Below, one piece after another: positions 1,373 through 41,487 of a DNA stretch of 64,000 bases. Origin of the DNA: an uncultured Prevotellaceae bacterium (GTDB taxonomy: Bacteria; Bacteroidota; Bacteroidia; Bacteroidales; Bacteroidaceae); contig CADCIB010000006.1 of the NCBI GenBank assembly GCA_902801375.1, positions 62,001 to 126,000 on the forward strand, given 5' to 3'. Numbering within the stretch: position 1 is the stretch's first letter; each line of letters opens with the position of its first letter. Made by a program: the position numbers and the translations under genes. The notes beneath the pieces are model-generated. The model was not told where the DNA came from, ran no database searches, and was given only the letters and a program-made list of their open reading frames with translations.

Positions 1373-1596
1373 AGACTGACCCCCATATATGAACCACACC
1401 GCTGAAGGATGCCCCACCCGTTGGAAGCACCTTATAGTTCTGATTGTTTTTTCTGCACCCTTCCAATAATGAACTTGCTATTACCATGTAGCTTCTTTCA
1501 CGGAGGTGATACACAAAAACCTTTGATACCAACATCTTATCTCTCACCCATTAAACCCAACGATTCCACAAAACATATCAATAAAAATCGATAACA

Positions 1597-4137
1597 ATGA
1601 AAACGATTCACAATGTAAAATACTTGCTGTTGGGCCTGTTCCTTGTACATTGTTCCATATTCAATGAACTCAAGGCTCAGACGGAGACAGATGCTTTCTA
1701 CATTTATCAGAATGACGGTCACTTCGACGGTTTCTTTTACGACGACGTCATCAAGATCAGCTATTCGCGACTTGATACGCTCGGTGTGGAACACAGCGAC
1801 TACGTCTCGCAGGAGGTTATCACCGCCGACTCTATCTACCGCATCATGCTCACGGCCATCGACTCCGTCAGTTTCGTACAACCAGAAATCAAGTACAACC
1901 CCCGCCTACGTCTTGTCTCGGAAGACCAGCTGTTCACCAAGATGCTCAGCCATGACGCGGAATACGAGAACCTCGTCTTCGCCGGCAACACCCCCGACAA
2001 TTTGAAGCCCAAGGTGGGCGACGTGTTTGCCTCGTTCGATGTGGACGATGGCTGGAGCGGCAAAGTAACGGAGGTGAAGACATCGGGTGGGAACATTGCT
2101 GTGAAGTGCAGTCCCATTGACGACATTACTGATATCTTCGAGCGCTTCGTCATGGTGGAACAGTACGATAGCAACCGCCATGGTCAGTTGCTGCGCCGGC
2201 GCGTCGCTGGGCGCCCCGACCTCACCATAGGACAGGCTCCCCATCGCTCTGAGGGAACCTGGGAGGGCGATCTCTTCAACTTCTCCATTGGTGGGCATAT
2301 TCCCTTGTATGCCAGCGACAGGCTGAACATCACGTTAGATCCATCAATAGATGGCAAATTGAACATCAAGACCGCATGGAATCTCTCCCTTTGGGGCGAT
2401 AAATATATCGGTATCACCTCGCATCTCGACTTCGGTGTGGGCCTCGGCTTCACCGTAGACGGACAGCTCACAGACTTCTTCCCCTCTGGCGTGGGAGGAC
2501 TGTTGGGTGGAGTTCCCGTTCCGGCGACATTCCCATTGGTCTACCTCGACATCGCGCCCGATGCTTTCATCCGTGGCGATGCCCATGTCAAGTTCTCGGC
2601 ACAGGCACCCAAGCTGAAAGGTGGCATGTGGTCGAAACTGGAAATCACCAACTGGTGGCCTTCGATGGATATCGGACTGGGCAACCCTGACGGCAACAGC
2701 AGCTGGGAAGCGACGGACGACGACGATGCCGGCTTGTCTGTAGAGCTAAACGGTTACGTACAGGCGGGTATGTTCTTCCCCATGAAATTCAAGAGCCTGC
2801 CCGTGCTGAAGAAACTTTTCGCTGCCGACATCGGCGGAACATGGTATATCGGGCCGAAATTGGCTGGAGCCATACAACTCAACTTACTCAATATGCCCTG
2901 GAACGACACAGGCACTTACGAACTAATGAAGAACACCAAACTGTCACTGCATATGGTGGATGCCGACTTCGAGGTGAAAGGCACGATCAAGACGGCTTTC
3001 AGCGGAAAGAAAGAAGTGACATTGGCCGACGGCAGCATCAACCTGTTCCCGCCGTTCGATGTCTCCATCGCACCGTCGTTTGAAAACTGCAAGGAGTCCA
3101 CCGACAACCGCTACTTCAATAAGAAAGACCAGGAAGCATGGAGTTCCGCCCCTGACGAACTGGATGGTACCAAGCAGCCATGCCGTGTATTCGCCTTCGA
3201 GCCTTCGGGAGGCGTGCTATCGCCTGTTGCGACAGGTACCGCCCTCTACAAGAAGAACGAAGCGGGCGAATACGAACTCGTGGAGACACAGAAGTGGGAC
3301 CGTTCCTACTACCACATCTTCCAGATGATGGGTCAGGACGTGCCCAAGGAGATGTGGCCCCAATTTGTACTGTGGGACAAAGAGGAATTGTCGCCCTATC
3401 CCAATGGAGCCTACAAGGTCTATCCCATGGTTCACATGTTCGGTAAGGACTGGTTGGCCGAACCTGTATACGAGTTCAATCTCGGCGAGGAAGTGCCGGC
3501 GGTCATCAGCCATCAACCATCATTCGTCCACCACTTCTTCCATTTTGGAGGCTATGCCTATGGCGACCCCAATGACTACTGTATGAATCATGAGCCCTCA
3601 GACGATGGTGGTACCGACGGCATCTACTTCGCAGATTGGTACGAGGACATCACGGATGTCATGAAACAGGTCAACGTCCTGCCCGACGACGGAGGAGGCA
3701 TCTTCTACGTCAAGGACGGCCTCAACATGACCGGCTCCTACGACAAAGTGAAGAACGAAGGCGAGGGTACCTTCACCCTCAGCAGTTCCTACTATAAGGA
3801 AGTCATGACTCTGGAGCAGGTAGAAGAAATCTTCTCGTCACCATCCACCTGGGCACAATGGATGTATAACAACGGCGGCGTTTACAACCTCATGATGTAC
3901 GGAGACATACAGCACGACATCGAAGGAACCTTCACCGTGAAGCAGGTAGGTGTCAACTACGTCTATACCTTCGAGGGGGAAGGGCCGTACAACCTCGACT
4001 GCACGGGTCTCGACGGCGTGCTGAACCTCGACTGGCTGTCGCCCCTCTACACCCTGCCGACAGAAATCAATACCTTCGACCTGCAGCAGACGGGCAACAC
4101 CTGGATGCAGTACGAGGTGAGGGTAAAAGCCCAGTAG
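1597..4137 (+). CDS. Large secreted protein of unknown function, 846 aa
   Basis: The signal peptide is at about residues 1-28 (hydrophobic core LLLGLFLVHC, ending 'LKAQ'). Residues ~32-95 form an N-terminal domain recurring in exported Prevotella/Bacteroides proteins ('FYIYQNDGHFDGFFYDD', then 'IDSVSFVQPE'), a module also found ahead of surface proteins in this group. The long middle part is rich in Gly, Asp and aromatic residues and looks like beta structure; no catalytic motif is recognised. Near residues 670-690 is 'SDDGGTDGIYFADWYED'. No membrane helix other than the signal. The C10 peptidase gene follows after 66 bp, so the two may be co-transcribed. Function not inferred. Confidence 0.7.
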   Translation: MKTIHNVKYLLLGLFLVHCSIFNELKAQTETDAFYIYQNDGHFDGFFYDDVIKISYSRLDTLGVEHSDYVSQEVITADSIYRIMLTAIDSVSFVQPEIKYNPRLRLVSEDQLFTKMLSHDAEYENLVFAGNTPDNLKPKVGDVFASFDVDDGWSGKVTEVKTSGGNIAVKCSPIDDITDIFERFVMVEQYDSNRHGQLLRRRVAGRPDLTIGQAPHRSEGTWEGDLFNFSIGGHIPLYASDRLNITLDPSIDGKLNIKTAWNLSLWGDKYIGITSHLDFGVGLGFTVDGQLTDFFPSGVGGLLGGVPVPATFPLVYLDIAPDAFIRGDAHVKFSAQAPKLKGGMWSKLEITNWWPSMDIGLGNPDGNSSWEATDDDDAGLSVELNGYVQAGMFFPMKFKSLPVLKKLFAADIGGTWYIGPKLAGAIQLNLLNMPWNDTGTYELMKNTKLSLHMVDADFEVKGTIKTAFSGKKEVTLADGSINLFPPFDVSIAPSFENCKESTDNRYFNKKDQEAWSSAPDELDGTKQPCRVFAFEPSGGVLSPVATGTALYKKNEAGEYELVETQKWDRSYYHIFQMMGQDVPKEMWPQFVLWDKEELSPYPNGAYKVYPMVHMFGKDWLAEPVYEFNLGEEVPAVISHQPSFVHHFFHFGGYAYGDPNDYCMNHEPSDDGGTDGIYFADWYEDITDVMKQVNVLPDDGGGIFYVKDGLNMTGSYDKVKNEGEGTFTLSSSYYKEVMTLEQVEEIFSSPSTWAQWMYNNGGVYNLMMYGDIQHDIEGTFTVKQVGVNYVYTFEGEGPYNLDCTGLDGVLNLDWLSPLYTLPTEINTFDLQQTGNTWMQYEVRVKAQ

Positions 4138-4203
4138 GAAAGCCGGCGTCCCTTCGCCCAAGCAAGCATAAAGATTTTTGAAACATACAAATAGGACTGA
4201 AGT

Positions 4204-6867
4204 ATGATGAAAAGACAAACCATCCTTGCCCTGCTGCTCGTGTTTACTGCGAGCATAGTCCTCGCCGACGATATCAGCGAGGAGCAAGCACTACAGACGG
4301 CCCGGGCGTTCGCAGTAGCGCAGACAGCCCACGCCACAAACGCTCGTAAGGCTCCTGTGGCCATCACCCCAACGCTGGCCTATACCGTGAAGTCGGAACA
4401 CTCGGACAAGGCCAACGTCTATATCGTGAACCTCGGCGGCGACCAGGGCTTTGTGGTCGTCTCGGGTGAGACAGGCACAACGGCCGCTGTACTCGGCTAT
4501 TGCGACCAAGGCACGTTCAGTTACGACGATGCGCCTTGCAACCTGAAAGCGCTTCTTCAGCAGTATGCCGGACAAATCGACTGCCTGCGGGAGAATAGCA
4601 ATCTCACTCCTCGTTCCTCACTCCTCGCTCCACGTTCTTCTTCAAGCGTCATCGGCAACGTCGTTGTGGAACCATTGGTCAAGACGAAGTGGGATCAGGA
4701 GGAACCCTTCAACGGCCAATGTCCTATTGTTAATGAATTCCTCACCCCCACTGGTTGTGGTGCCACCGCGATGGCGCAGGTCATGGCATTCTGGAAGTAT
4801 CCCAAGTACGGGCGCGGCAGCTATAGCTATTATTGGAATCCCTCGTACAACACTCGCTTCGACTATGGTCGCGATTTCAGCAACTCCGTCTACGACTGGG
4901 ACAACATGCTCGACGATTATACCGGTGGCTACACAGAGGCACAGAGCGAGGCTGTGGCCTTGCTCATGGCCGACGTGGGAGCAGCCATGCACACCATCTA
5001 CGGTTACGGATTGTTTGGCAGTATGAGTCAATCCACGCGTTGTGAGACCGTCTTTCCCAAATATTTCGACTACAACCCTGACTCCATTCGCTTCGTCAGG
5101 CGCTACCTGAATCTCGGCAATGGAGAGACCGACGATTTCGATGAGTTCATCAAGCAAGACCTCGACAAGCAGCGCCCCGTCATCTTGGCGGCCCATCCCT
5201 CTCCTGATATGGATGGACACTTCATTGTTGTCGACGGCTATACCGATACTGGCTATTTCCACATGAACTTCGGCTGGTCGGGAGATAAGGACGGATACTA
5301 TCTGACCACCATCATTGATGTCTACTACGACAAATCTATAGAGAATCGCCGTCAATTTTCTTGGCTCGAACAGCAGCTCATCTACGGCATCTGTCCGTCG
5401 TACAGCACACGCGAGGGCGACAACTATTACTACATTGCCGACGGACAAGCCATCCTCAACCATTCGGAAGCCAGTGAGGCCATCAACGTGCCCGCCTCTA
5501 TCACCGTCGATGGCACCACCTATCCCGTGACCAAGATCAGCCGCATGGCATGCTATGAGAACGAGACATTGACATCCATCCAGTTGCCATCGTCCATCAA
5601 GGAAATTGGTGAACGGGCTTTCTACAATTGTGGCAACCTCACCACCATCGCTGCGCCCGACAACACATCGAGTGGACTGACCGAAAACTACTTACCCGAC
5701 CAACTGACAACATTGGGCGACTATGCCTTTGCACGCAGCGGACTGACAGACATCACCGTTCCTGCATCCTTGCAGCGCGTGGCCGACTATGCCTTCTACC
5801 GATGCAGCAATCTGAGCCTCATCACCGTCTTAAGCAAAGAGGTGGGTAGCATGGCCTTCGGTCGTTGCAGCAAGAAACCCGATGTGTATTCCTCTGCTGA
5901 GACACTCGGCGATGGCGCCTTCTTCTACGATGGCGTGTCCGACATCTTCCTCGGCCGTGTGAAGCACATCGGCAACGACTGCCTCAGCGGCAGCAACCTG
6001 AGCTACGTCGACTTGAGCAACATCGAAACCATAGGCTGGAACCTCGGCATGGTAATGCCAGGCGGCACCGTCTATGTGGGCAGCGATGCGCCTGTCACGT
6101 CGCTTCGCCGATATGCGCCATTAGACTATACTACCACCATCATCATCGACAACGACAACCCCAACTTTGTAGCCATCAACAACACCGTCTTCAGCAAAGA
6201 CCGCAAGACGCTCCTCCACTTCGGATGGAAAGACGGACAGCCCAACGAATACGGCATCTATGAGACGCGTAGAGAGCTGACAGTGCCCGCCTCTGTGGAG
6301 CGCGTTGCCGACTTCGCTATCGGCGACAACCGCAATCTCCATAAACTTACCATCCCAGCCACCGTGCGTACCATCGGCGTAGGCAATTTCCCCAATGGCG
6401 CAGAGGTGTTCAACTATTCCACCACACCGCAACCCATCAAGTTGTTGGACGAAAGCTATCTTGAGGGCTGCACCATGGACGACGAACTCATTGATGTGGG
6501 CGCACAGAGCTACGGAACTACGAACTCTGAACTCGACAAACTGCTCAACCAGGCTATTTCGGCCACGCTCCACGTGCCCGCTGGCTGCAAGGAGGCATAC
6601 GCTGCCGCCGATGTCTGGAAGAACTTCACCAACATCATCGACGACCTGACGGCAGCTCCCACCGCCATCGAGGTGATGAGCAGCGATGGTTTCTTGTCCG
6701 ACGCACTCGAAGAAGGCTCAGACATACAGCTCTATTCCCTTGACGGCAAGCTTGTCTATTCAGGCAAAGTCGATTCCAGCTTCCCGCTTCCCGCTCTTCG
6801 AGAACAATCTCCCATCTACATCCTCAAGGCCGGCGATAAGACGTTCAAGTTCATACTAAACAACTAA
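4204..6867 (+). CDS. C10-family cysteine peptidase (streptopain-like) with BspA-type leucine-rich repeats, 887 aa
   Basis: Secreted papain-fold protease. A signal peptide (~1-21) is followed by a streptopain-type propeptide (~22-145). The catalytic domain (~150-395) contains the nucleophile C185 in 'TGCGATAMAQVM' and H339 in 'DGHFIVVDGY', then 'FHMNFGWSGDKDGYY', typical of family C10. Residues ~400-800 carry LRR_5/BspA-type repeats ('VTKISRMACYENETLTSIQL', 'IKEIGERAFYNCGNL'), likely for adhesion. The last ~75 residues ('IQLYSLDGKLVYSG' ... 'KTFKFILNN') resemble a T9SS type A sorting tail. Between propeptide and catalytic domain lies a Ser/Pro/Arg/Leu-rich linker ('LTPRSSLLAPRSSSS') encoded by a degenerate CTCCTCxCTC-type repeat (about 4603-4645). 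A paralogue follows at 7574. Confidence 0.92.
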   Translation: MMKRQTILALLLVFTASIVLADDISEEQALQTARAFAVAQTAHATNARKAPVAITPTLAYTVKSEHSDKANVYIVNLGGDQGFVVVSGETGTTAAVLGYCDQGTFSYDDAPCNLKALLQQYAGQIDCLRENSNLTPRSSLLAPRSSSSVIGNVVVEPLVKTKWDQEEPFNGQCPIVNEFLTPTGCGATAMAQVMAFWKYPKYGRGSYSYYWNPSYNTRFDYGRDFSNSVYDWDNMLDDYTGGYTEAQSEAVALLMADVGAAMHTIYGYGLFGSMSQSTRCETVFPKYFDYNPDSIRFVRRYLNLGNGETDDFDEFIKQDLDKQRPVILAAHPSPDMDGHFIVVDGYTDTGYFHMNFGWSGDKDGYYLTTIIDVYYDKSIENRRQFSWLEQQLIYGICPSYSTREGDNYYYIADGQAILNHSEASEAINVPASITVDGTTYPVTKISRMACYENETLTSIQLPSSIKEIGERAFYNCGNLTTIAAPDNTSSGLTENYLPDQLTTLGDYAFARSGLTDITVPASLQRVADYAFYRCSNLSLITVLSKEVGSMAFGRCSKKPDVYSSAETLGDGAFFYDGVSDIFLGRVKHIGNDCLSGSNLSYVDLSNIETIGWNLGMVMPGGTVYVGSDAPVTSLRRYAPLDYTTTIIIDNDNPNFVAINNTVFSKDRKTLLHFGWKDGQPNEYGIYETRRELTVPASVERVADFAIGDNRNLHKLTIPATVRTIGVGNFPNGAEVFNYSTTPQPIKLLDESYLEGCTMDDELIDVGAQSYGTTNSELDKLLNQAISATLHVPAGCKEAYAAADVWKNFTNIIDDLTAAPTAIEVMSSDGFLSDALEEGSDIQLYSLDGKLVYSGKVDSSFPLPALREQSPIYILKAGDKTFKFILNN

Positions 6868-35885: not shown

Positions 35886-37904
35886 TTATAGTTCTATCGT
35901 GGCTCCCACACTCCAGGAACGGCCTGGCATGGGGTAGTATTTGATGATTTCATATTGCTCGTCGGTCAGGTTGTGCACCGTTCCCTGCAGTTTGAGGCGG
36001 CAGGAGCGTAGGCGGAATTCATGCGAAAGCGTGACGGATTGTTCGGCATATGCCTTCAGATGATACTCCTGCGTGGTCAGTGCTGAGCTCCATCTTTCGC
36101 CTTGTGCCAGAAGGCTGTAGCCCACATTCACCCACGGCGTATAGAGGAGCAGCGACGCGTTGCCGTTGTGCTTCGGGGTATACGGCAGCTGACGTCCATA
36201 GCTGGCAGAGCGTTTCTCGTGGTCTTCCGCTTTCTGCCAGGTGTATGCCCCGGTCAGCAGCAGCGACACTTTTCTGCCGAAGGGAATCTCTGTGGCCATC
36301 GTTGCATCGATGCCGTGAATGTACACCTTCCCAAAGTTGGCCATCTTCCATACATAGGTTGAAGGGAAGGCCACAATCTTGTCGGTCACATCGTTGAAGT
36401 AGCCGTCGAGGGTCACCGACAGGTATTTCATCCACCTTGCGGGCTGTCCGCTCCATGTGATGCCCACATTGTATTCGTTGGCGTTCTCTGGGCGCAGGCC
36501 GGTGTTACCCATGCGGATATAGTAGAGGTCGTTGAACGATGGCATGCGGAACGTGCTTTTGTACATCAGTCGGATATACAAGGCCTCATTCGCCAACACC
36601 CGATACGACAGCGAGGCCGATGGCGAGAGCCGCCGACGGTCGTCGGGCTGCTTTCCAGCCTTCACCTTCTCTGTGGCGTAGGTGCCCACCAACGAAGCAT
36701 TGAGCGTCAGTCGGTTCCAGACATAACGGGCCGAAAGGGCGGTCAGCGACGTGGTGCGCTTGGGATACGGCGGGTTGTTCAGGTTGTCGGAGATGGAGAT
36801 GTTGCTCCGCAGGTCGTTGAACGCGATGTCCTCAGCCAATGCGAAGGTGAGGTTGTCGATGGGGGTCCATCCCACGGTGGCTGAGGCATAGTATTCATTC
36901 TGCCGCGCCACATCGGTGAGTTTGCCGTCCTGATATTTCACGTCGGTGTCTTCGTAGCGGTTCCACGAGTGGGCATACTTCACTCGGGCGTGCAGGCTCC
37001 ACTGTTGGTTGAACCGTTTCCGCCATACCGCCTGCGTGAAAAAGTCCTCGTCCCAGAGCCGTTCGTCACTCTTGTCGTTATAGAGAATCACCGCTCCAGG
37101 CAAACCGCGCTCCGAGCGAAACCAGTAGGCTTTCACGTCCAACTGGCTATTGTCGGCCAACGTGTTGTAGAGGTTGGCCTCGCCCTGCCACGACTCGATG
37201 TCGGAGTTGTAGCGCTTCTCGCGTGTACGCATGCGCCCATTTTTTAAGGTAAAGGGATATACTCCATCAGCCCGCATGTAAGTTCCACCCAACGAAACGG
37301 CGGTCCTCTCGCTGAATGACTGCGTCAAGCGCAGCGAGGGCGATACCAATCCCCATGAACCACCGCGCAGCGAAGCCTTGAAATGAGGGGTGAACCGCCT
37401 TCTCTCTCCTCCATAGTAGGGTCGCTCTGTGGTGATGCTCAGCACGCCGGCCGACGCATAATGACGTGCCGACTGCATTTGATCATCCTCCTCGCCCATA
37501 GCCAACGACAACTCTTGGATGTTATCCGTCTGGTAGCGCCCGATGTCTATCTGTCCAGCCTGTGTGTTGCTGATGGTCACACCGTCGTAGCTCACCGCCG
37601 TATGGTGGGCGCCCAGGTTGCGCACGCTCACTGTCTTCATGCCGCCGATACCGCCGTAGTCCTTCACGCTGGCCCCAGCGAATTTCTTCACGGCATCGGC
37701 CAAGTTGGTCAGCCCCAATAGCTCCAGCTCCCGATGGGTCATCAGCTGGATGGGCTTGCCACCCGTCACGTCGCGCTGCAGACGATGGGCGGTCACCGTC
37801 ACTTCGTCGATGGCATGCGTGCGACTGCTGATGCTATCGTGCTGGGCATACATGCCAGCCGACAGTATCACAGCGATACCCAAAGCCGTTAATCGTTGAA
37901 ACAT
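35886..37904 (-). CDS. btuB: TonB-dependent outer membrane cobalamin receptor (BtuB), 672 aa
   Basis: Signal peptide ends at about residue 20 ('AGMYAQ'). A TonB-box-like 'HAIDEVTVTA' precedes the plug domain ('LTNLADAVKKFAGASVKDYGGIGGMKTVSVRNLG', 'YDGVTISNTQAGQIDIGRY'), and the rest is a 22-strand barrel ending in an aromatic/hydrophobic terminal strand ('WSVGATIEL'). The true ATG is at 37904; the longer frame would start at a TTG. The cobalamin riboswitch just upstream and btuG, btuF and btuC downstream make vitamin B12 or a corrinoid the likely substrate. Confidence 0.92.
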   Translation of the reverse strand: MFQRLTALGIAVILSAGMYAQHDSISSRTHAIDEVTVTAHRLQRDVTGGKPIQLMTHRELELLGLTNLADAVKKFAGASVKDYGGIGGMKTVSVRNLGAHHTAVSYDGVTISNTQAGQIDIGRYQTDNIQELSLAMGEEDDQMQSARHYASAGVLSITTERPYYGGERRRFTPHFKASLRGGSWGLVSPSLRLTQSFSERTAVSLGGTYMRADGVYPFTLKNGRMRTREKRYNSDIESWQGEANLYNTLADNSQLDVKAYWFRSERGLPGAVILYNDKSDERLWDEDFFTQAVWRKRFNQQWSLHARVKYAHSWNRYEDTDVKYQDGKLTDVARQNEYYASATVGWTPIDNLTFALAEDIAFNDLRSNISISDNLNNPPYPKRTTSLTALSARYVWNRLTLNASLVGTYATEKVKAGKQPDDRRRLSPSASLSYRVLANEALYIRLMYKSTFRMPSFNDLYYIRMGNTGLRPENANEYNVGITWSGQPARWMKYLSVTLDGYFNDVTDKIVAFPSTYVWKMANFGKVYIHGIDATMATEIPFGRKVSLLLTGAYTWQKAEDHEKRSASYGRQLPYTPKHNGNASLLLYTPWVNVGYSLLAQGERWSSALTTQEYHLKAYAEQSVTLSHEFRLRSCRLKLQGTVHNLTDEQYEIIKYYPMPGRSWSVGATIEL

Positions 37905-37919
37905 TGACAAGTTCTTTTA

Positions 37920-38175: not shown

Positions 38176-38206
38176 CAAAGGTACGAATAAGCGAGAACAA
38201 TACAAA
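38176..38206 (-). promoter_or_regulatory. btuB operon promoter P1 (TTTG-N19-TACCTTTG)
   Basis: Minus-strand TTTG at 38206-38203, 19 bp, TACCTTTG at 38183-38176, ending just before the first conserved block of the riboswitch. Confidence 0.85.
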
Positions 38207-38260
38207 AAAAAAGTCAGAAATTTTTTTTTATTGTCGAGCGAAAGTACCTTCGGCGCATGC

Positions 38261-38291
38261 CAAAGTTACGAATAAGCGAGAACAATACAAA
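38261..38291 (-). promoter_or_regulatory. btuB operon promoter P2, duplicated copy (TTTG-N19-TAACTTTG)
   Basis: Minus-strand TTTG at 38291-38288, 19 bp, TAACTTTG at 38268-38261. It lies in the second copy of the 85-88 bp tandem repeat; a third, -7-only copy (TACCTTTG, 38356-38349) follows. Confidence 0.8.
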
Positions 38292-38460
38292 AAAAAAGTC
38301 AGAAAACTTTTTATTTTATTGTCGAGCGAAAGTACCTTCGGCGTATGCCAAAGGTACGAATCAGGTGTATGAATCGATATTTCGGACATACATGAAGCAT
38401 GTCCCTACAGTCGGTTCAAATGAACCGCAGAGACTCTCAGAAAGAGCTCCTTCTTCAACT

Positions 38461-39129
38461 TTATTTCTCGTAGGCAATCAGCGAGCTCTTGCCGCCCGTG
38501 ATACCTTCAAAGTAGGGCGGTTCATCGCGCAGGTAGATGTCGTCGTAGATGAAGGGGGCTACGATGGTGTCCTTGCGGTCGGGCAGGATGAGGCCGAACT
38601 TGCCGTCTTTCTGCGCGATGATGGGCATCGTCACGAGGTCGTCCACATAGACATAGCAGGTGCGCAGGAAGTCGTAGTGCGGCGATACGAGGATGCCGCC
38701 CTCGTGGTCGCGGATGCCGAACTTGCCGTCCTGCTCGAATACTTCATGGAAGCGGACGTACTTGGAGATGACGCGCTCCACGTAATAGTTGAATCGCCGC
38801 TCGTCGCGAAGCATCGTCAGCAGGTAGTCGTAGGTGTCGCAGTAGTTGGCCATCGACCGCGCCACCACCACCTTGAAGTCCAGTCCGCTGATGGACTTGC
38901 GATTCAGGTCGATGTATCGCGCGATGGCCTGCTCCTTCTCAGCGTCGGTCAGCGTCTTCAGGGCTTCCTCGAATTTCTCCATGATGCACTTGCGGCCGCT
39001 CATACCCTTGATGTAGCGGTGCATCTGTCGCCCCATCTCCATGCACACGAAATGGTCCATCTGTTGCTGTTCTATCGGGTCAACGTATTGTTGCTCAAAG
39101 TTTTCACATGTTATCTTTTCCATAATCAT
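38461..39129 (-). CDS. WG-repeat-like cytosolic protein, about 222 aa
   Basis: No signal peptide or membrane helix. The N-terminal two thirds are charged and helical ('FEEALKTLTDAEKEQAIARYIDLN'). The last third has two units like WG repeats ('QDGKFGIRDHEGGILVSPHYDFL' and 'KDGKFGLILPDRKDTIVAPFIYDDI'), a fold of short beta hairpins common in Bacteroidetes. Function unknown. Start taken at the ATG at 39129 (39123 also possible) because the -7 promoter element TAACTTTG sits at 39154-39161, inside the longest frame. Confidence 0.7.
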   Translation of the reverse strand: MIMEKITCENFEQQYVDPIEQQQMDHFVCMEMGRQMHRYIKGMSGRKCIMEKFEEALKTLTDAEKEQAIARYIDLNRKSISGLDFKVVVARSMANYCDTYDYLLTMLRDERRFNYYVERVISKYVRFHEVFEQDGKFGIRDHEGGILVSPHYDFLRTCYVYVDDLVTMPIIAQKDGKFGLILPDRKDTIVAPFIYDDIYLRDEPPYFEGITGGKSSLIAYEK

Positions 39130-39153
39130 CGTTCTTTTTTTGTTATCTGTGGG

Positions 39154-39161
39154 CAAAGTTA
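39154..39161 (-). promoter_or_regulatory. -7 promoter element of the WG-repeat-like gene
   Basis: Minus-strand TAACTTTG (39161-39154), 25 bp before the chosen start. It rules out starts upstream of 39154. Confidence 0.6.
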
Positions 39162-39384: not shown

Positions 39385-41487
39385 TTAATGGATGCCCTTG
39401 ATGAGCTTTTTCAGTGTCTCCTTGGCATCGCCAAGCTCCAGGTAGACACCCTTCTCGCGGCTGTAGAGCGGATTCTCCACACCAGCATAGCCGGGCTTCA
39501 GGTCGAAGTTGCAGATGATCACCTCCGGAGCCTTGTCCACATTCAGCACGGGCATGCCATAGATGGGCGTTCCCTCTGCCTCGCGGGCGGCGGGGTTGAG
39601 CACGTCGTTGGCACCGATAACGACGACAGCGTCGGTCTTGCCGAAGTCATCGTTGATCTGCTCCATCTCGAACAGCTTCTCGTAGGGCACGTCGGCTTCG
39701 GCCAGCAGCACGTTCATGTGGCCCGGCATACGACCGGCCACGGGGTGGATGGCGAAGCGCACACGGGCTCCGTGGTCCTCCAACAGCTCGGCCAGCTGCT
39801 TCACCTGATGCTGAGCCTGTGCCAGAGCCATACCATAGCCAGGAACGATGATAACGTCTTTGGCGGCAGAGAGCACTGAACAGGGATCGGCCTTGGCGGG
39901 AGCGGCGGCTGTGGCTGCCGTAGCCTCAGGGGCGGCATGCACACCGGCGATGAGTTTCTTCAGCGTTTCCTTGGCATCGCCAAGCTCGAGATAGACACCC
40001 TTGTCGCGGCTGTAGAGCGGATTCTCTACACCAGCATAACCGGGCTTCAGGTCGTAGTTGCAGATGATCACTTCGGGTGCCTTGTCCACATTCAGCACGG
40101 GCATGCCATAGATAGGCGTTCCCTCAGCCTCGCGGGCAGCCGGGTTCAGCACGTCGTTGGCACCAATCACCACTACGGCATCGGTCTTGCCGAAGTCGTC
40201 GTTGATCTGCTCCATCTCGAACAGTTTCTCGTAAGGCACATCGGCCTCAGCCAGCAGCACGTTCATGTGGCCCGGCATACGACCTGCCACGGGATGGATG
40301 GCGAAACGCACACGGGCACCACGGTCTTCGAGGGCCTCGGCCAGTTGCTTCACCTGATGTTGGGCCTGTGCCAGAGCCATACCATAGCCAGGTACGATGA
40401 TGACGTCCTTGGCTTGTGCCAGCACGGTAGCGGGTGATGACTGTTGGGGGGCGGGTGTTGAGGCGGCGGGTGCAGCCTCTATCTGGGCATTCAGTGTGCC
40501 CACGCGAGCTTCAAGGGCCTCAACGAGGGCCTCAAGCTTCTTGACTCTTTCTTCTAATTGCATAACACGTTGTTCTAATTGTTTGTTGTGTTCAGAATCG
40601 GGGGTGTTGGTTGTTGGTTGATGGTTGATGGGTAATGCGGGTTTGCTCGTTGTGGGCGGAACCAGGATCTTGATAAGGCTACGGTTCATGGCTCGGCACA
40701 TGATCTGTGTGAGCAGCAGACCCGAAGCACCCACGATGCCGCCGACGGCCACAAGGAAGATGTCGCTGATGGCCATACCGGCGATGGAGCCGGCCACACC
40801 CGAGAGGGAGTTGAGCAGAGAGATGGTGATGGGCATGTCGGCACCACCCACACGGACGGAGAAGAACAGTCCGAAGAGCGATGCGCTGACCAGTGTGCAC
40901 ACCAGGCAGACCGTAGGATGGCCGCTGGTGAAGGTGCCCACCAGGATGAGGCATACCGTCAGGACGAGGAAGAGCATGGTGAGCACAGAGTGGTTGCTCC
41001 ACACGATAGGTTTCTGCGGCAGCACACGGTGTAGCTTGCCTGCAGCCACGAGACTGCCCACGAGCGTGATCATACCGACGGCCACGGCCAGGAGCGACGT
41101 GAAGTTGACAAATGGCTGATAACCTTTTATGATGATCTCAGCCAGTTGCTCGTCGCTGAATCCCACGCCCATGGCAGAGAGCACACCCACCAAGGCCGAG
41201 GCACCACCGCCAAGGCCGTTGAAGAGGGCTACCGTCTGTGGCATCTGGATCATCTGCACGCGGCGGGCCATGGTGCCACCGATGAGGGCACCCACGAGGA
41301 TAGCCGGATAGATGGTCCAGGCACTGACCACGCCGCTGAAATACAGCGTGGCCACCACACCGATGAGCATGGCCAGGGCCGACAGCAGGTTGCCGTTGAC
41401 CGAGGTCTTCACCTTGCTCATCATGGAGATGCCAGCCAGCACGCAGACGGACAGCAGGGCACTGATGATAATTTGTATTGCGTTCAT
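39385..41487 (-). CDS. pntB: NAD(P) transhydrogenase beta subunit with duplicated NADP-binding domain III, 700 aa
   Basis: Inner-membrane subunit of proton-translocating transhydrogenase. Residues 1-270 are membrane domain II (about nine helices; 'MPQTVALFNGLGGGASALVG', 'GGADMPITISLLNSLSGVAG'). Then comes a linker ('PALPINHQPTTNTP', encoded by a GGTTGTTGGTTGATGG-type repeat) and a coiled coil of about five heptads (304-337, 'LEQRVMQLEERVKKLE'). Domain III follows twice: 359-516 and 542-700, each with 'VPGYGMALAQAQHQV', 'HPVAGRMPGHMNVLLAEADV', 'VIGANDVLNPAA' and 'GYAGVENPLYS'. The copies differ at only a handful of residues; most DNA differences are third-position. A normal PntB is about 460 aa with one domain III. 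Both copies have NYD or NFD where E. coli has KRS for the NADP 2'-phosphate. Confidence 0.93.
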   Translation of the reverse strand: MNAIQIIISALLSVCVLAGISMMSKVKTSVNGNLLSALAMLIGVVATLYFSGVVSAWTIYPAILVGALIGGTMARRVQMIQMPQTVALFNGLGGGASALVGVLSAMGVGFSDEQLAEIIIKGYQPFVNFTSLLAVAVGMITLVGSLVAAGKLHRVLPQKPIVWSNHSVLTMLFLVLTVCLILVGTFTSGHPTVCLVCTLVSASLFGLFFSVRVGGADMPITISLLNSLSGVAGSIAGMAISDIFLVAVGGIVGASGLLLTQIMCRAMNRSLIKILVPPTTSKPALPINHQPTTNTPDSEHNKQLEQRVMQLEERVKKLEALVEALEARVGTLNAQIEAAPAASTPAPQQSSPATVLAQAKDVIIVPGYGMALAQAQHQVKQLAEALEDRGARVRFAIHPVAGRMPGHMNVLLAEADVPYEKLFEMEQINDDFGKTDAVVVIGANDVLNPAAREAEGTPIYGMPVLNVDKAPEVIICNYDLKPGYAGVENPLYSRDKGVYLELGDAKETLKKLIAGVHAAPEATAATAAAPAKADPCSVLSAAKDVIIVPGYGMALAQAQHQVKQLAELLEDHGARVRFAIHPVAGRMPGHMNVLLAEADVPYEKLFEMEQINDDFGKTDAVVVIGANDVLNPAAREAEGTPIYGMPVLNVDKAPEVIICNFDLKPGYAGVENPLYSREKGVYLELGDAKETLKKLIKGIH

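Follow-up and report, generated by a model that had tools for sequence, protein, structure and literature searches.

The stretch of DNA analyzed here, referred to throughout as the window, comprises 64,000 nucleotides from an uncultured Prevotellaceae bacterium (contig CADCIB010000006.1, positions 62,001 to 126,000). On its minus strand lie, in order, the genes for domain I (alpha-1), alpha-2 and PntB, all three of which match transhydrogenase families; the locus is a PntAA-PntAB-PntB gene set for a transhydrogenase, a membrane enzyme transferring hydrogen between nicotinamide cofactors (Table 1). Its unusual member is the beta subunit, PntB, in which the NADP(H)-binding domain III (DIII) occurs twice in tandem. 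The protein matches Pfam PF02233 at 765.8 bits in two stretches (gathering cut-off 31.7 bits), and a DNA repeat of 300 nucleotides at 90% identity recurs within the gene at a spacing of 549 nucleotides, or 183 codons. Together these results bear out an earlier note on this DNA that had described two domain IIIs, and the residue ranges given there for the copies (359-516 and 542-700) fit those of the profile. Compared with the classical Re/Si-specific NADP(H)-binding proton-translocating transhydrogenase, the window PntB departs in having two DIIIs per protomer instead of one, and in carrying N-Y-D and N-F-D where the NADPH site of DIII classically reads K-R-S/G. The window genome (3.48 Mb in 57 contigs) contains a single match to the whole PntB protein. 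Besides PNTB, the Pfam scan of this protein returned a TPP_enzyme_M match and a coil family below its cut-off, and no lipoyl domain; the weak side matches in Pfam and NCBIfam to thiamine-diphosphate and other enzymes were set aside.

Table 1. The transhydrogenase locus of the window (positions within the window; profile-based domain numbering begins one residue ahead of the ATG).
Feature	Position	Strand	Basis or remark
PntB (transhydrogenase beta subunit), two tandem domain IIIs	39385..41487	-	Open reading frame (ORF), 700 residues, ATG start
Membrane domain II, residues 4-270	40678..41478	-	Alignment and profile
Linker from domain II to first domain III, residues 271-357	40417..40677	-	Profile
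Five-heptad coiled coil, residues 304-337	40477..40578	-	10 consecutive a/d positions Leu/Ile/Val
Domain III copy 1, residues 358-513	39949..40416	-	Profile
N-Y-D of copy 1, at the position of E. coli K424-R425-S426 (NADPH site)	40051..40059	-	Alignment
Ala/Pro-rich linker between both domain IIIs, residues 514-541	39865..39948	-	Profile
Domain III copy 2, residues 542-696	39400..39864	-	Profile
N-F-D of copy 2, at the position of E. coli K424-R425-S426	39502..39510	-	Alignment
Alpha-2 subunit (PNTB_4TM), 103 residues	41537..41848	-	Pfam family match; Ser at the T. thermophilus His42 position
Alpha-1 subunit, NAD(H)-binding domain I, 385 residues	41945..43102	-	Family match; RISRAQ loop and YAADIRP acidic residue kept

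Over 155 aligned codons (465 nucleotides), the two window copies differ at 48 nucleotides, with 2, 3 and 43 of these differences at first, second and third codon positions, which agrees with the excess of third-position changes pointed out previously. Only 4 of the 155 core residues differ; 2 further differences in the tail, taken from the translation, account for the "about six" of the earlier note. The ratio of nonsynonymous to synonymous divergence (dN/dS) between the copies is 0.032. Both copies are under strong, long-lasting purifying selection: the divergence is dominated by third positions, a pattern that a fresh duplicate left to drift would not produce. The earlier suggestion of selection on both copies, or gene conversion, was right in outline, given this ratio and the concerted evolution apparent in the DIII tree described below. 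In favor of an assembly or sequencing artefact, some draft genomes do break or carry runs of N within their DIII repeats. However, the window copies are 10% divergent in their DNA, and the one-contig genomes G848, G838, G843 and G863 carry 2, 3, 3 and 4 DIII copies, which shows that such arrays are real. Misassembly is thereby excluded in practice, and the chance of an artefact is negligible.

Two to four near-identical DIIIs in a row are found in many relatives from gut and mouth bacteria. A scan of one genome per species gave 294 relatives; the 80 that ranked best, a selection that may favor multi-DIII proteins, included arrays of 2, 3 and 4 DIIIs from Prevotella, Porphyromonas, Parabacteroides, Dysgonomonas, Massilibacteroides and several Bacillota. 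We collected 166 distinct PntBs, defined as ORFs encoding a nearly complete domain II together with one or more full DIIIs, after dropping 17 repeat loci and 6 identical proteins. Tandem arrays of two to four DIIIs were found in 55 of these; the departure from a single DIII to which the earlier note drew attention thus recurs elsewhere, and the two-DIII form is not unique to the window. The domain I gene was present at 139 of 143 loci and the alpha-2 gene at 165 of 166.

Rates of multi-DIII proteins are best taken from draws of genomes by taxon, which were not ranked by similarity and which overlap (G000, G338 and G426 recur). A PntB over the cut-off occurred in 76 of 295 genomes of the order, with 4 multi-DIII proteins in one ORF and that of G426 split over two contigs, and in 20 of 398 genomes of the genus, with 3 clear multi-DIII proteins and 2 split. 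The Porphyromonas family, drawn as the family of G338 (whose PntB is identical to a Porphyromonas uenonis protein), stands out: 31 of 38 genomes bear a PntB, and at least two DIIIs are present in 25 of the 31, 18 of them clear in one ORF and 7 spread over broken ORFs or contigs. The other 6 are unresolved, and no intact single-DIII PntB was found among these 31 genomes. G446 is a Clostridia-type genome; in its class a PntB was present in 16 of 391 genomes, and 2 of these were multi-DIII. Within the phylum of G445, a Bacillota genome, the corresponding figures were 33 of 299, with 13 multi-DIII proteins in one ORF and 3 more in pieces. In a draw across the Bacteroidota, 137 of 296 genomes carried a PntB; the window genome was the sole multi-DIII case, and the other 136 gave one match each over the cut-off.

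DIII counts in drafts are likely low, since several assemblies break or hold runs of N inside the repeats. Drafts of the Porphyromonas family (L146, L161, L163-L170, L172, L173, L176-L180) show breaks, frame changes and N runs within their DIII repeats, and annotations of PntB in such drafts may be wrong for the same reason. At L068, a single-DIII PntB ORF (2992-4518) is directly followed by a separate ORF (4529-5347) with another DIII, and the locus contains 2 N; the underlying gene may have several DIIIs and a gap, or may be split. Broken loci such as L163, L165-L170, L172, L173, L176 and L179 were excluded from the PntB set. L146, L161 and L068 are counted as single and may hold more DIIIs, their loci being broken or gapped; L146 and L161 are omitted from the larger tree used below. 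In 10 of the 55 multi-DIII proteins the counts take in partial copies that are truncated where the locus or contig stops; L199 has no more than one full and one partial copy.

All 55 of these arrays fall on one side of a division within PntB. When the 166 proteins were aligned to the E. coli, T. thermophilus and ovine chains and sorted by the motif at E. coli K424-R425-S426, which is named as part of the NADPH site in a passage of PMC9529548, 38 proved to be of the classical KR type, all with a single DIII. The remaining 128, from Bacteroidales and Bacillota, are of an N-x-D type and comprise 73 single-DIII and all 55 multi-DIII proteins (Fisher 2e-8, not corrected for kinship). Thirty further Bacteroidota PntBs (L243-L272, those of the 137 genomes of the Bacteroidota draw that became loci) are KR-type and single-DIII. 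In a domain II tree of 96 rows, made from all 45 multi-DIII proteins then known and a sample of singles, a fully supported branch separates the KR-type rows from those of the N-x-D type. The N-x-D type is further marked by a basic residue just before GGADMP, at window R212 (40852-40854; E. coli S208 position), which is Arg in 127 and Lys in 1 of the 128 proteins and is found in 0 of 38 KR-type proteins. A His at the position of window H166 (40990-40992) likewise occurs in 120 of 128 N-x-D and 0 of 38 KR-type proteins. The Asp-Arg pair between domain II and the linker (E. coli D213/R265) is kept in the window as D217 and R269 and in 125 of the 128.

The N-x-D loop in place of K-R-S puts the cofactor specificity of this clade in question. 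Exchanging K, R and S for N, Y and D is a textbook change of the NADP-to-NAD type, and one may ask whether the loop gives DIII a preference for NAD(H) or some other nucleotide, such that the enzyme would do something besides supplying NADPH. The exchange is consistent throughout the clade, with N-x-D (in one protein N-S-S) replacing K-R-S in 128 proteins and K-R found in 0 of 138 full DIII copies of multi-DIII proteins; the window PntB also scores 539.6 bits against the NCBIfam equivalog NF006974, below its cut-off of 689. We nevertheless consider a changed cofactor rather unlikely. In domain I the acidic residue of NAD type is retained, both in the window and in every sequence that the text pattern for it matched, and with NAD on both sides the coupled reaction would be pointless; moreover, the basic residue of domain II at the R212 position could take over a charge. 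A switch of domain I to NADP was not seen, the acidic adenosine-ribose residue being kept wherever the pattern matched (34 of 34 KR-type; 18 of 105 N-type unmatched). The mobile-loop motif of domain I is likewise kept where its pattern matched; this pattern, written for the N-type form, found no match in 8 of 105 N-type and in 24 of 34 KR-type domain I sequences. In L135 (G766; PntB ORF 1462-3957, plus strand), N-S-S stands in each of the three DIIIs and Ser replaces the linker Arg of the D-R pair, a concerted change across DIIIs in a loop that is thought to bind the nucleotide. Cofactor choice is a separate question, and a changed cofactor can be compatible with either account of the extra copies considered below.

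The window enzyme also lacks a channel histidine at both described places, having Asn (N90) at the E. coli beta-91 position (H91) and Ser at T. thermophilus alpha-2 position 42. Beta-91 is Asn in 128 of 128 N-x-D proteins, and the alpha-2 position is Ser or Ala in all 126 sequences that have a residue at this site. This loss had to be dropped as a mark of the multi-DIII clade, since most of the 30 further KR-type Bacteroidota lack the histidine too (alpha-2 Ser in 30 of 30; beta-91, by text pattern, Asn in 27, His in 1 and unmatched in 2), and it is missing in 6 of 36 KR-type proteins of the earlier set. Many Bacteroidota transhydrogenases thus seem to be without a channel histidine at either place.

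The linkers of the window PntB contain two elements that the earlier note had described correctly. A run of ten consecutive a/d positions, all Leu, Ile or Val, begins at residue 304, fits the five-heptad coil placed there and was matched in 0 of 20,000 shuffles of the linker; and the description of the linker as partly repeat-derived is fair, as an Ala/Pro-rich tail ending in ..VL..AKDV precedes both DIIIs. The coil had also been taken for an inserted novelty tied to the duplication, which we reject: a/d runs of at least 7 occur in 48 of 73 single-DIII N-x-D PntBs (37 of a Prevotella type, 11 of a Paludibacteraceae type) and in 1 of 55 multi-DIII PntBs, that of the window. The coil is common in single-DIII Prevotella relatives, and only its combination with two DIIIs is peculiar to the window. 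Of the 20 genomes with a PntB in the genus draw, 14 combine the coil with one DIII, 1 has one DIII without the coil, 2 have two DIIIs without it, 2 are split over contigs without it, and the window has both. Mutual exclusion of coil and multiple DIIIs, for which Fisher's test gives 0.005 in the genus (uncorrected), was unsupported in a kinship-aware test with 7 independent pairs on starred branches, 0.7 of them informative on average. Paludibacteraceae-type PntBs, some labelled only Bacteroidales (L061, L065, L067, L069, L072, L074, L076, L078, L081, L085, L086, L088), have a long linker of another kind, whose heptad-like helix (e.g. DFEKLLEQLNDMEVKQLLDAIEALTKEVAGLREQLA) is perhaps a second origin of a linker coil.

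The history of the copies is one of frequent change. In a tree of 142 DIIIs (116 copies from 45 multi-DIII proteins, 23 singles and 3 references), the copies of one protein are monophyletic in 31 of 45 cases; in the remaining 14 they mix with related proteins, once with a single-DIII protein (L070 with L129). Copies evolve in concert across proteins. Copy state, one or several, changes about 10 times on the 96-row domain II tree and about 15 times on a 126-row tree. For 100 within-protein copy pairs, the median synonymous difference is 0.39 and the median dN/dS 0.067 (92 pairs with dS above 0.05 and a defined ratio), so the low ratio of the window copies has its counterpart across relatives. 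At 67 columns that are near-invariant in single-DIII relatives, first, middle and last copies deviate on average 1.11, 1.03 and 0.82 times; the figure for KR-type proteins is 13.6. Taken together, the trees, the dN/dS values and the intact invariant columns indicate that copies are often gained, lost and homogenized and that those retained are kept functional. On the domain II tree the window sits within a mostly coil-bearing, single-DIII group, for which reason its second DIII is most simply a later gain; its nearest row, L027, is single and has no coil.

Such a history could arise without any gain to the cell. Replication slippage, unequal crossing-over and gene conversion might turn the repeats over neutrally, an intact extra DIII being harmless and a defective one, which competes for docking, being purged. 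The number of copy-state changes, the monophyly of copies in 31 of 45 proteins and the range of 2-4 copies within the Porphyromonas family are all as expected under such turnover, which we regard as a strong competitor, somewhat less probable than the carrier proposal below. Three findings speak against it: no intact single is found in the Porphyromonas family, where 25 of 31 are multi-DIII and 6 unresolved; the 38 KR-type proteins include no multi-DIII protein and the other 136 PntB-bearing genomes of the Bacteroidota draw show no second match above the cut-off, though slippage should be equally possible there; and at least two copies stay intact in widely spread lineages.

We tentatively propose, with a probability of roughly 40%, that the extra DIIIs are interchangeable, tethered cofactor carriers. 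Passages of PMC5742237 supply the constraints: DIII has to visit domain I and domain II alternately, two face-up DIIIs clash, there is docking room for about one face-up and one face-down DIII at once, a first DIII binds tightly to the dimer of domain I and a second one weakly, and the dissociation constant (Kd) of isolated DIII for NADP(H) lies below nM. Because docking room is limited, the extra DIIIs should be mostly undocked at any time, and each undocked DIII would hold its nucleotide. Hydride transfer would take place while a DIII is docked on the domain I dimer, and ion coupling and nucleotide exchange while it is docked on domain II. Any loaded DIII could occupy the next free docking place, and the DIIIs would form a pool of equal carriers. 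Flexible tethers rich in Ala, Ser, Thr and Glu would keep a spare loaded carrier at hand, like the tandem lipoyl domains on pyruvate dehydrogenase E2. Spare DIIIs would be useful given the scarce docking room and slow undocking or release. The copies would be created and homogenized by unequal crossing-over and gene conversion, and selection would purge those losing function. The architecture, its spread and the selection on the copies are established here; the shuttle is inferred. In its favor we count the intact state of the copies, their low dN/dS, the frequency of arrays in the N-x-D type (55 of 128) and in the Porphyromonas family, and the domain I and alpha-2 genes at nearly all loci. 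The inter-DIII linkers also suit it: 83 of them span 22-50 residues (median 29), are rich in Ala, Ser, Thr and Glu, and contain 17.6% large hydrophobics, compared with 35.5% in DIII.

Several observations weigh against the carrier proposal. A low dN/dS could reflect nothing more than poisoning of the enzyme by a defective DIII, without any benefit from a sound extra copy, and purging of harmful copies would leave the same trace as carrier function. The roughly 15 copy-state changes fit neutral repeat turnover. Copies in arrays deviate at the invariant columns more than singles do (0.8-1.1 versus 0.30). With the K-R-S motif absent, the nucleotide borne by the DIIIs is itself in question. A longer linker between domain II and the first DIII in proteins with more DIIIs was looked for across copy numbers and not found: the medians are 47, 47 and 46 residues for 2, 3 and 4 copies, no longer than in singles, so there is no extra reach at this joint. 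Among 25 single-DIII N-x-D proteins without the Prevotella-type coil, this linker measures 42-62 residues in 13 and 93-102 in 12 (Paludibacteraceae type); its median in the 37 with that coil is 84.

It is also conceivable that the copies divide the labor, one DIII serving domain I and the other domain II or a parked or regulatory role, with the window coil joining the linkers of both protomers. The strong heptad pattern of the coil would fit such a role, and the copies of four close proteins of the Porphyromonas type (L024, L149, L150, L158) intermingle, with neighbors grouping by position among the matches listed. Against it, 31 of 45 sets are homogenized within the protein, the window copies are alike at all but 4 of 155 core residues, and nearly the same invariant residues are retained in first, middle and last copies. 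We consider this explanation quite improbable.

A bolder version of the carrier proposal is that the N-x-D clade has left the one-DIII, half-of-the-sites design altogether: 2-4 interchangeable DIIIs would swing between domains I and II, nucleotide recognition would have moved in part from the K-R-S loop to the basic residue found throughout the clade in domain II, and cofactor choice and coupling would differ from those of the transhydrogenases studied so far. This combination seems unlikely to hold in full. Current models of transhydrogenase start from a dimer with two DIIIs, of which one is up and the other down, both on short linkers, and the three-domain architecture is called universally conserved in a passage of PMC5742237. 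Our search of open-licence papers, covering titles, abstract starts and passages, yielded no description of tandem domain IIIs; domain listings in databases may display the repeats uncommented. Provided that the dimer is kept, the multi-DIII proteins would give naturally occurring dimers with four, six or eight DIIIs, which are ready-made tests of whether DIII swivelling limits the rate, of the need for strict alternation of protomers and of the gating of nucleotide release. The N-x-D change bears on metabolic models that assume NADPH supply, and the cofactor specificity of this branch is quickly testable. According to a passage of PMC5378342, the transhydrogenase genes of Porphyromonas gingivalis are upregulated about 2.3-fold in biofilm. 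Downstream of the transhydrogenase genes of the window, an 88-bp unit is repeated 2.2 times with 94% matches (38176-38361), flanked by an ORF of 231 residues (38461-39156) and the next large ORF (35886-37910).

Of the known enzymes close to that of the window, that of Thermus thermophilus (alpha1, alpha2, beta; PDB 4O9U, 9HJX) shares with it the layout in three genes, domain II and DIII by sequence, the Asn at the E. coli beta-91 position and the D-R pair between domain II and the linker. It differs in having one DIII, K-R-G, the alpha-2 channel His42 and a linker of 14-19 residues, the length given for all known enzymes in a passage of PMC5742237, where the window has two DIIIs, the coil, N-Y-D and N-F-D, and Ser in place of His42. 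The PntAB of Escherichia coli shares the domains and the DIII motifs GYGMA, HPVAGR-PGHMNVLL and GAND; it differs in its one DIII, its 462-residue beta subunit, K424-R425-S426 and channel His91. The coil-bearing PntBs of Prevotella relatives (for instance L021 from Prevotella koreensis, L016, L026) stand close to the window on the domain II tree and have N-x-D and the same coil but one DIII. Tandem DIIIs like those of the window, without a coil, are found in Porphyromonas circumdentaria (L012, 4 copies), P. uenonis (L024, 3) and Hoylesella marshii (L011, 2). The PntBs of Parabacteroides and Dysgonomonas (2 DIIIs) and of Bacillota (2-4) likewise combine tandem DIIIs with N-x-D (N-S-S in L135) and inter-DIII linkers as in the window, again with no coil. 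The lipoyl domains of pyruvate dehydrogenase E2 are tandem, mobile substrate carriers on flexible linkers, variable in copy number and understood as a carrier pool. A "varying number of lipoyl domains" is spoken of in the abstract of PMC8421416. E2 is a working analogy and not a relative, for its fold is unrelated, its cofactor covalently bound and its complex soluble; the multi-DIII PntB is instead a variant of the known transhydrogenase family that standard models have not considered.

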